A stretch of 64,000 nt of DNA from Bacillota bacterium. Lineage in GTDB: Bacteria; Bacillota; Limnochordia; DTU080. The DNA lies in contig DULU01000086.1 of assembly GCA_012840225.1 (NCBI GenBank), positions 1 to 64,000 of the forward strand, given 5' to 3'. Positions 45,740-49,160 of the stretch are shown piece after piece. Below the pieces are notes generated by a model, which was given only the letters and a program-made list of their open reading frames with translations, ran no database searches and had not been told where the DNA came from. The first letter of the stretch is position 1, and each line of letters starts with the position of its first letter. The translations under genes and the position numbers were made by a program.

Positions 45740-45950
45740 AGCAGTAACCTCCAACCATACCTCGAAAGAGACGGCCGGCAGAGCGCAGGCAGCCGGCACG
45801 GCGGTCTTTTTGGTGATTTTACACCAGCCTGAAGCGCCGGGCAACCTTCTTCTCCGGCCGAAAGCGCAGAAAAACGCAAATATAAAAGGGAGTTCCCGGC
45901 AGGGGAACGAATTCTTCATGACAGGATAGCTTCAGGAGGGGTACCAGTTC

Positions 45951-47147
45951 ATGTGGCGCGACAAACTGCTCTCATTGCTGATCTGGAGCGGCACGGCCGC
46001 TGTTTTTCTTGTCCTGTCGGCTTCCTCCATCCCGTTTCCCCAGCTGCCTTCGGGTATGGATCTGGCCGGCTTGCTGGGATTCCTGGCGGTGGTCATGGTC
46101 GGCACGGAACTATTGTCTCTCCTCACCATGTGGTGGATGGTGTTCAAGCAGAAGCCGGCCGTGGAAGGAGCCATGATCAACCGGTTATATAAACTGCTCG
46201 CCGTCATTGCGGCGGCGGTGGTGGTCACCTACAGCATCGGCCGCCTGGCCTCTTTCACCACCTTTTTCACCCTCTTCGGCGGCATGCTCCTGGGCTGGTC
46301 GCTGCAAGCGCCGGTGAGCGGCTTCGCCGCCTTCCTGCTCGTCTCCCTGAAGCGCCCGTTCCGACCCGGCGACCGGGTGCAGTTCCCCAATCTGGGGCTG
46401 ACCGGTGATATCCAGGAGATCGGCCCCATGTATACCGTATTGAACCAGGTGGGCGGCAGCATAGGCAGCGAGGAAGCCGTCGGCCGCTTTATATTGGTGC
46501 CCAACGCCATGCTGTTCAGCCAGGTGGCCATCAACTATACCATGAAGCAGGAGGCGGCTTACATTCTAGATGAAGTGGTCATCCGCGTCACCTACGATTC
46601 CAACTGGTCGGTAGCCGAGAAGCTGCTCTTGGAGGCGGCGCGGGAAGTGACGGCCGACATCATCGCCGCCACAGGCGTGGAGCCCTACATCCGTTCAGAC
46701 CTCTATGATTATGGTGTCTACATGCGGTTGCGCTATATGACGCGGGTGAAGGACCGCCCGGCCATCTCCTATGAGATCTCCAAACGCATCTTCAGCGCTT
46801 TCCAGAAGGAACAGGATGTGGACTTTGCCATCCCCTATGTCTATTCCTATAAGGCCGGAGCGGTGCGCAAAGAGGAGGAGCGCAGCCAGGATCCTGCTTT
46901 CCGCCACATCATGATCAACAAAATAAAAACTGAAGAACAGCCGAAGCTGGACCCGCACGATATCGAGATGCTGATGGCCAGCATAGAAGAGAAGGGACTG
47001 CTGCAGCCTATTGTGGTGGCCAAACCGCCCGGCGCGGACCACTATGAGATCCTGGCCGGTCATCTGAGATTTGAAGCGGCCAAACGCCTGGGATGGAAGT
47101 CGATACCGGCGCTGGTCCGGCAATACGACAACGAAGAAACCGCCTGA
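45951..47147 (+). CDS. Mechanosensitive channel (MscS) with C-terminal ParB-N-like domain
   Basis: MscS pore/beta domain (GWSLQAPVSGFAAFLLVSLKRPFRPGDRVQF...), then LLQPIVVAKPPGADHYEILAGHLRFEAAKRLGWKSIPALV. Confidence 0.88.
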   Translation: MWRDKLLSLLIWSGTAAVFLVLSASSIPFPQLPSGMDLAGLLGFLAVVMVGTELLSLLTMWWMVFKQKPAVEGAMINRLYKLLAVIAAAVVVTYSIGRLASFTTFFTLFGGMLLGWSLQAPVSGFAAFLLVSLKRPFRPGDRVQFPNLGLTGDIQEIGPMYTVLNQVGGSIGSEEAVGRFILVPNAMLFSQVAINYTMKQEAAYILDEVVIRVTYDSNWSVAEKLLLEAAREVTADIIAATGVEPYIRSDLYDYGVYMRLRYMTRVKDRPAISYEISKRIFSAFQKEQDVDFAIPYVYSYKAGAVRKEEERSQDPAFRHIMINKIKTEEQPKLDPHDIEMLMASIEEKGLLQPIVVAKPPGADHYEILAGHLRFEAAKRLGWKSIPALVRQYDNEETA

Positions 47148-47186: not shown

Positions 47187-49160
47187 ATGCTTGAGAAAAT
47201 AGCCGATTGTGTCAGAGCCCTGTCTGCCGACGCCGTACAGAAAGCTGCCTCGGGACATCCCGGCCTGCCCCTGGGTTGTGCCGAAATCGGCGCCGTCTTA
47301 TACAGCGAGATCCTGCGTCACGACCCGCAGGCCCCGGATTGGCCCAACAGGGACCGGTTCGTCCTCTCCGCCGGCCATGGTTCGGCTTTCTTATATTCCC
47401 TGCTCCATCTGTGCGGCTATGATATCTCCCTGGACGACCTGAAAAACTTCCGCCAGTTGGGCAGCAAAACGCCCGGCCATCCGGAACACGGCTTGACCCC
47501 GGGGGTGGAGACTTCCACCGGACCGCTGGGGCAAGGTTTGGCCAATGCGGTGGGCATGGCGCTGGCGGAGGCCATGGCGGCGGCCCGCTACAACCGCCCC
47601 GGCTTCCCGGTGGTCGATCATTACACTTACGTGTTGGCCGGCGACGGCGACATGATGGAAGGCATCAGCTCGGAGGCCGCTTCCCTGGCCGGACACCTGG
47701 GACTGCATAAGCTGATCGTCATCTACGACGCCAACAATATCTCCATAGAGGGTCGCACCAATTTGACCTTCAGCGAAGCGGTAGGCGACCGCTTCCGCGC
47801 TTTCGGCTGGCGGGTCTGGGAAGTGGACGGTCATAACATCCCCGCCATCACCAGCACCCTGCAAAGCGCCCGCCGCCACACCAACGGGCCCTCCCTCATC
47901 ATCGCCCGCACCAAGATCGGCCGCAAAAGCCTGAAGGAGGACAGCGCCAAAGCGCACGGCGAACCGCTCGGGGTAAAAGAGGTGGCCGCCCTGAAAGACG
48001 CTTTAGGCCTGCCGCAGGAAGATTTTTATGTTTCCGGCGACATCCGCCATTATTTTACGGCGAAACAACCGGTCTGGACCAAAGCCCGGCTGGAGTGGGA
48101 GCTGATGTTCAACAGCTGGTCGGAGCAATATCCCGAGCTGCGCCGGGAGTGGGACGCCTCCCGACGGCTGGAACTGCCGGCCAACCTGGCCGCCCTGTTG
48201 CCGGCTTTTGAAATCGGCAAAGAGGCCGCCACCCGCGATGCCGGCGGCAGCGTCCTCCGTGTCCTGGCGCATCACCTGCCCTACCTGGTGGGCGGCTCGG
48301 CCGATCTCGCCCCTTCGACCAAAACCTATCTCGAAGGCTATGCCTCCGTGCAAAAGAATGAATATGGCGGGCGCAACCTCCACTTCGGGGTGCGCGAGCA
48401 CGCCATGGGCGCCATATTGAACGGCATGGCCCTGCACGGCCATTTCCGGGTCTTCGGCTCCACCTTCCTGGTGTTCGCCGATTATATGCGCCCGGCCATC
48501 CGCATGGCCGCACTGATGGAATTGCCCGTCATTTATGTGTTCACCCACGACTCCTTCTATGTCGGCGAAGACGGACCGACGCATCAGCCGGTGGAGCAGC
48601 TCGCCTCCTTGCGCCTCATCCCCAATCTGCAGGTGATCCGCCCGGCTGATGCCGTCGAAACCGCCGCCGCCTGGGTAGCGGCCCTGGAACGCCGGGATGG
48701 GCCGACAGCGCTCATCCTCACCAGGCAGAAGCTCCCGGTGGTGACCACCTGCCGCCCGGAGGAGATGCGCCGGGGCGCCTATGTGCTAAAGGAAACGACC
48801 GACGGCCTCCCGCTCAAAATAGTGCTGGTGGCCACGGGGAGTGAGGTGGCGCTGGCTTTGGCGGCAGCTGAAGAGCTCGCGGCCGGCGGCACAGGCGTCA
48901 GGGTGGTGTCGATGCCCAACCGGGAAGCCTTCCTCGCCCAGGAGCCGGCTTACCGGGAAGCTGTTCTGCCGTCTGGCGTGAAACGTCTGGTGATTGAAGC
49001 CGGCCACCCCTCAGGCTGGCATACCCTTTTGGCTCCGGGCGACGGTGTGATGGGCCTCGAGCGCTTCGGCACGAGCGGCAAAGCCGAACACCTGGCGGAG
49101 TATTTCGGCTTCACGCCGGCGAAAGTGGCGGCCATGGCCCGCTCGCTCATCGGAGCCTGA
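47187..49160 (+). CDS. tkt: Transketolase
   Basis: SGHPGLPLGCAEIGAVLY, GDGDMMEGISSEAASLAGHLGL, HDSFYVGEDGPTHQPVEQLASLR. Confidence 0.95.
   Translation: MLEKIADCVRALSADAVQKAASGHPGLPLGCAEIGAVLYSEILRHDPQAPDWPNRDRFVLSAGHGSAFLYSLLHLCGYDISLDDLKNFRQLGSKTPGHPEHGLTPGVETSTGPLGQGLANAVGMALAEAMAAARYNRPGFPVVDHYTYVLAGDGDMMEGISSEAASLAGHLGLHKLIVIYDANNISIEGRTNLTFSEAVGDRFRAFGWRVWEVDGHNIPAITSTLQSARRHTNGPSLIIARTKIGRKSLKEDSAKAHGEPLGVKEVAALKDALGLPQEDFYVSGDIRHYFTAKQPVWTKARLEWELMFNSWSEQYPELRREWDASRRLELPANLAALLPAFEIGKEAATRDAGGSVLRVLAHHLPYLVGGSADLAPSTKTYLEGYASVQKNEYGGRNLHFGVREHAMGAILNGMALHGHFRVFGSTFLVFADYMRPAIRMAALMELPVIYVFTHDSFYVGEDGPTHQPVEQLASLRLIPNLQVIRPADAVETAAAWVAALERRDGPTALILTRQKLPVVTTCRPEEMRRGAYVLKETTDGLPLKIVLVATGSEVALALAAAEELAAGGTGVRVVSMPNREAFLAQEPAYREAVLPSGVKRLVIEAGHPSGWHTLLAPGDGVMGLERFGTSGKAEHLAEYFGFTPAKVAAMARSLIGA

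Follow-up and report, generated by a model that had tools for sequence, protein, structure and literature searches.

An MscS-type channel joined to a ParB-CTPase-fold domain in a conserved bacterial protein family

Does a single gene of a Bacillota bacterium really join a mechanosensitive channel to a ParB-type domain, and what could such a domain do on a channel? The gene lies in a window of 64,000 bp (contig DULU01000086.1, positions 1 to 64,000). A preliminary description, made from the sequence alone, had read its 398-aa product as one MscS channel followed by the ParB N-terminal fold; PF00924 and PF02195 were both matched above cut-off in this ORF.

The gene and its channel part

The ORF was open without break for 398 codons, from ATG to TGA. 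The following features were assigned.

45934–45939, forward strand: AGGAGG, Shine-Dalgarno-like, 11 nt 5' of the ATG (read from the sequence)
45951–47147, forward strand: complete gene, MscS channel with ParB_N tail, 398 aa (ORF reading and Pfam; the architecture recurs at 15 other loci)
45954–46022, forward strand: predicted extra N-terminal membrane helix, residues 2–24, pLDDT about 84–92 (AlphaFold2 secondary structure, hydropathy)
46062–46235, forward strand: helices 38–65 and 70–95, equivalents of MscS TM1–TM2 (AlphaFold2; phmmer alignment to MscS)
46245–46349, forward strand: pore helix TM3a/b, residues 99–133, with GGMLLGWSLQAPVSG aligned to the MscS pore helix (phmmer to 2vv5 and 7dlu; local pLDDT low)
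46314–46541, forward strand: MscS beta domain, PF00924 (Pfam)
46440–46487, forward strand: family-specific beta-domain insertion LNQVGGSIGSEEAVGR, residues 164–179 (family alignment)
46560–46847, forward strand: MscS alpha/beta cage domain and barrel-like end, residues 204–299 (PF21082 weak, E = 0.015; AlphaFold2 model)
46848–46898, forward strand: variable linker, residues 300–316 (family alignment, 22% mean pairwise identity)
46899–47141, forward strand: ParB_N / ParB-CTPase fold domain, residues 317–397 (PF02195, E = 7.2e-17; tail model)

Pfam analysis placed PF00924 (MS_channel_2nd) at residues 122–197 (E = 7e-6; 26.5 bits, cut-off 20.2) and PF02195 (ParB_N) at residues 317–397 of the whole protein (61.7 bits, cut-off 26.3), the latter with E = 2.6e-18 when the tail was searched alone. 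The tail domain originally proposed was recovered, with its start moved to about residue 317, slightly ahead of the peptide first quoted. PF21082 (MscS C-terminal domain) was sub-threshold in the window protein and reached E ≤ 0.01 in 5 of the 15 aligned members (the window protein and 14 full-length relatives). PF00924 and PF02195 were both matched in all 15, at E ≤ 0.01 for PF00924.

The full-length structure was predicted by AlphaFold2 from an alignment of seven sequences. Helices were predicted at residues 2–24, 38–65, 70–95, and 99–133 (the last one broken), followed by the beta domain, the alpha/beta domain, and the tail; the N-terminus would have four membrane helices, and E. coli MscS has one fewer. 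The closest PDB sequences for the channel part were MscS, YnaI, and MscM. The RPFR.G and PN..NY motifs and the TM3 pore helix aligned to MscS (phmmer, 2vv5 and 7dlu), with Q119 of the window protein opposite Q112 of E. coli MscS. The PF00924 match above cut-off and the aligned pore helix and motifs place the channel part in the MscS superfamily. The best Foldseek match of the full model was MscS (E = 2.6e-11), with a full-model TM of about 0.2–0.3 and a low-confidence TM3. Because TM3 (pLDDT below 50 at residues 107–135) and the linker were low-confidence, the placement of the tail relative to the pore was left uninterpreted.

In the phmmer alignment M112 and W116 fall at the gate residues L105 and L109 of MscS. 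W116 (46296–46298) was Trp in 12 of the 15 members and Leu in three planctomycete members; a Trp at this position could make the closed pore narrower. The insertion LNQVGGSIGSEEAVGR followed a highly conserved pattern, QVGGxIxSEExVGR, which was mostly missing from E. coli MscS in the alignment, and L164, QVGG, E175, and GR were invariant in all 15 members. At the other end of the channel part, VDFAIPYVYSYKAG appears to resemble the barrel strand found at the base of the cage in MscS, which would place the tail below the distal cage end, where bCNG channels carry their ligand domain.

Distribution and constraint of the fused family

A search for other MscS and ParB architectures, suggested in the preliminary description, returned 15 further loci (16 with the window). 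Fourteen of the 15 were full length, and these were 45–62% identical to the window protein. Six loci were found in 100 relatives, two more in a sample of 399 genomes of the phylum (four of the 399 were positive, the window's own counted), and seven among named genome contigs, which were labelled Clostridia, 'Lentisphaerae', Pirellulaceae, Rhodopirellula, Planctomycetota, and Verrucomicrobia, with one unassigned 3' fragment. Overall, the hosts were Bacillota-type, Planctomycetota, Verrucomicrobia, and 'Lentisphaerae' MAGs; single taxon labels may be wrong because the named records come from metagenome assemblies. With the channel part alone as query, 6 of 73 genomes of the class matched (own included), all with the tail, and neither this query nor the whole protein retrieved a tailless close relative of the channel. 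In the genomes searched, the family was rare, patchy, and always fused. The MscS-type channel joined to a ParB-CTPase-fold domain is a real, evolutionarily conserved bacterial protein.

Mean pairwise identity was 66–70% in the pore, beta, and cage domains, 43% in the tail, 25% in the first membrane helices, and 22% in the linker. The tail is therefore taken to be under constraint, given its identity relative to that of the linker and the first helices. The distance matrices of channel and tail were correlated (Mantel r = 0.80, p = 0.0001), and the sequences are consistent with one old fusion passed down as a unit. No relatives were found in plasmids or viral contigs of the collections searched, and a phage or plasmid origin was rejected.

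All-against-all comparison of gene neighbours found none, such as parA, conserved across the family beyond near relatives. Matches occurred mainly between closely related planctomycete loci; the rest involved generic ABC transporters or a small number of isolated pairs. Downstream of the gene, a transketolase gene (47187–49160) starts 39 bp past the stop codon; it is not a conserved neighbour, and operon partners were rejected on this comparison. A DNA-proximal role with coupling to the nucleoid, as first suggested, found no support, the DNA-binding part of ParB being missing and no neighbour such as parA being conserved.

Other channels were also searched for in the genome. A second MscS-type protein of 187 aa is encoded on the same contig (62503–63066, reverse strand; PF00924, 49.8 bits); it stops soon after the beta domain, seemingly without the alpha/beta cage. 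A third MscS was located on another contig (C106). MscL (PF01741) had no match in this 96.6%-complete genome and was present in 10 of 14 control genomes; osmotic release may therefore rest on MscS-type channels.

The tail: fold, kept and lost residues, and alternative readings

The similarity check recommended for the tail gave sequence matches to ParB, Noc, SerK, PadC, and sulfiredoxin. In the PDB, Noc and ParB came first (E about 1e-10 to 1e-11), followed by SerK, PadC, and sulfiredoxin. The tail-only model (mean pLDDT 84.5) had a TM of about 0.67–0.76 to CTP/CDP-bound ParB and Noc, 0.75 to SerK, and up to 0.76 to sulfiredoxin, the SerK and sulfiredoxin structures being ATP/ADP-bound. Identity to canonical ParB/Noc was 32–41% in the structural alignment. 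The HTH and C-terminal dimerisation domains were absent, in agreement with the first reading, as the protein stops no more than 10 residues past the last ParB_N strand. Because the tail ends after the last beta strand in the model, alpha3–alpha4 are missing as well. In ParB these helices provide P-motif 3 and are swapped between the two subunits in the closed state of the NTD dimer, and some of the contacts to nucleotide and Mg2+ come from alpha3 and P-motif 3 (PMC8367383); their absence here counts against nucleotide binding. Residue 377 of the tail (47079–47081) was Cys in 14 of the 15 tails and Ala in the window protein.

Two nucleotide motifs of ParB were located in the tail.

46953–47009, forward strand: Box I region, GLLQ invariant in 15 of 15 (family alignment)
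47058–47069, forward strand: Box II (P-motif, GxxR), GHLR, residues 370–373 (family alignment, ParB comparison)

G370 and R373, the equivalents of G77 and R80 of B. subtilis ParB, were invariant in all 15 tails. In the B. subtilis protein, the substitutions G77S and R80A impair CTP binding, whereas E78Q and E111Q abolish hydrolysis (PMC8494293). Position 371, equivalent to E78, was Glu in two tails and had lost it in 13, the window protein included; the residue was His in most and otherwise E, Q, D, or R. The ENLQR box (Box III) was found in none of the 15 tails in the family alignment. By comparison, GERR and ENLQR/ENVQR were both kept in all 22 canonical ParB/Noc controls from related genomes, where GERR was counted by reading the sequences, including GERR preceded by V or T. 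Box III is frequently missing in non-canonical members of the fold (PMC12704722). This pattern of binding residues kept and hydrolysis residues lost is that of PadC, which is without both hydrolysis features and binds CTP without hydrolysing it (PMC8494293).

From these residues, the tail likely binds an NTP. ParB-fold fusions bind CTP, ATP, or GTP, but 17 of 28 ParB-fold proteins tested bound no NTP (PMC12704722), and having the fold is thus not enough to show binding. By the same account, nucleotide specificity is unpredictable from sequence. G349 and S344 are the counterparts of C. crescentus ParB G79 and S74, which contact the cytosine amino group (PMC8367383); G349 was invariant and S344 was Ser in 9 of the 15 tails, a likeness of Box I to CTP binders that hints faintly at CTP. 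NTP hydrolysis is unlikely in most members. Of the nucleotide-responsive, CTPase-like module that had been proposed, the nucleotide-responsive part is therefore plausible, whereas the CTPase part is not supported, given the loss of the Glu and of ENLQR.

A PadC-like role might account for the tail in another way. It would recruit a partner (a ParA-type ATPase, Noc/ParB, or a cytoskeletal protein) that places or regulates the channel at cell sites, and the nucleotide would gate this interaction and not the pore. PadC itself, a non-hydrolysing ParB-like scaffold, is a precedent; the tail is nearest in sequence to canonical ParB/Noc and could thus have kept an interaction surface of ParB, and the same genome encodes two other ParB_N proteins. 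However, gene neighbours are unconserved across the family, and the helices exchanged between ParB subunits are missing from the tail. We consider such an adaptor unlikely.

A similarly low probability is given to the tail being a structural remnant that folds and aids the assembly or stability of the cage and binds no ligand. The loss of Box III, the free drift of position 371, and the many ParB-fold proteins without NTP binding in vitro (PMC12704722) would fit this reading, but G370, R373, and GLLQ are invariant in 15 members that have diverged across several phyla, which would be difficult to account for if neither a ligand nor a partner were bound.

It is very improbable that the tail is a tethered enzyme acting like sulfiredoxin or the free-serine kinase SerK. 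The fold is alike (TM 0.76 and 0.75), and the SerK NCBIfam model was matched at E = 7e-10, but its equivalog score was 38.5 bits against a cut-off of 380. Position 371, which we take to correspond to the catalytic Cys of the sulfiredoxin GCHR motif, was Cys in none of the 15 members, and the strand-to-helix loop (residues 327–333) had no conserved acidic residue. Active-site residues and profile scores were the basis for rejecting both activities.

That a frameshift or an assembly error fused two genes, conceivable in a draft genome of 154 contigs, has a negligible probability and is refuted by the same single ORF at 15 other loci in independent assemblies, with 45–62% identity where aligned full length.

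Proposed mechanism and comparison with known systems

The preferred reading, to which we give about an even chance, is a nucleotide-modulated MscS-type channel with a minimal ParB-fold domain as cytosolic ligand sensor. The channel would be heptameric, by homology, and its seven tail domains, each attached by a short flexible linker, would form a ring immediately beneath the cytoplasmic end of the cage. Each tail domain probably binds an NTP via the Box I loop (GLLQP) and Box II (GxxR), with CTP as the leading candidate and ATP next, and would leave it unhydrolysed in most members. Nucleotide occupancy may then alter the transmission of tension from the cage and beta domain to the pore, an effect on gating suggested by the position of the tail and the precedent of bCNG channels. 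Gating would thus be tuned by nucleotide, and the channel would not be a plain emergency valve.

The stronger form of this reading, a CTP-gated (or NTP-gated) ion channel in which the ParB-CTPase fold senses the ligand for an MscS-type pore and the CTP or energy-charge level is the direct gating signal, is less probable. If true, it would be a class of ligand-gated channel without earlier description as far as found. A conserved channel with an NTP-type module would connect membrane permeability or osmotic release with nucleotide levels. The tail also offers a ParB-fold domain free of the DNA-clamp parts, in which the kept binding residues and the lost hydrolysis residues are directly testable.

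The ParB fold has recently been recognised as a general NTP-binding module, with the roles of its fusion proteins mostly open (PMC12704722). The fusions described there (HNH, methyltransferase, CBS, acetyltransferase) resemble the present protein in that fusion has brought in the ParB fold as a module for NTP binding; a channel, MscS, or transmembrane partner is unmentioned in the main text of that paper, and its supplementary domain list or InterPro may tabulate the architecture. The open-access literature searched held no relevant paper on MscS with ParB, and as far as found a ligand-domain MscS channel with this ligand domain has no earlier description there.

E. coli MscS (2vv5, 6vyk) shares the TM3 pore helix, the beta domain, and the alpha/beta cage with the window protein (Foldseek E = 3e-11 for the full model, rounded), whereas the window protein adds the N-terminal helix, the QVGG..EE..GR insertion, the Trp at gate position L109, and the ParB_N tail. 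The NTD of Noc/ParB (PF02195; 7nfu, 6t1f, 7bm8) is the best sequence and fold match of the tail, sharing the Box I GLLQP loop and the Box II Gly and Arg. Unlike it, the tail has no HTH, C-terminal dimerisation domain, alpha3–alpha4, or ENLQR, the hydrolysis Glu is mostly lost, and a DNA clamp is not expected. Myxococcus xanthus PadC (6ryk) likewise carries an orphan ParB-like domain without the hydrolysis Glu and ENLQR, fused to unrelated sequence; it is 26% identical to the tail and is a bactofilin/ParABS scaffold protein rather than a membrane channel.

The bCNG channels, said to have been described by Caldwell and colleagues in 2010 and Malcolm and colleagues in 2012, reportedly belong to the MscS superfamily and carry a C-terminal cyclic-nucleotide-binding domain. 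To our knowledge, MscS channels with a C-terminal ligand domain have only cyclic-nucleotide-type domains. They resemble the window protein in placing a nucleotide-sensing domain C-terminal to an MscS-type pore, at the distal cage end. The Pfam scan found no cNMP_binding domain in the window protein, whose tail is PF02195; the cyclic-nucleotide-binding domain of bCNG is unrelated to the ParB-CTPase fold, and the expected ligand here is an NTP instead of a cyclic nucleotide.
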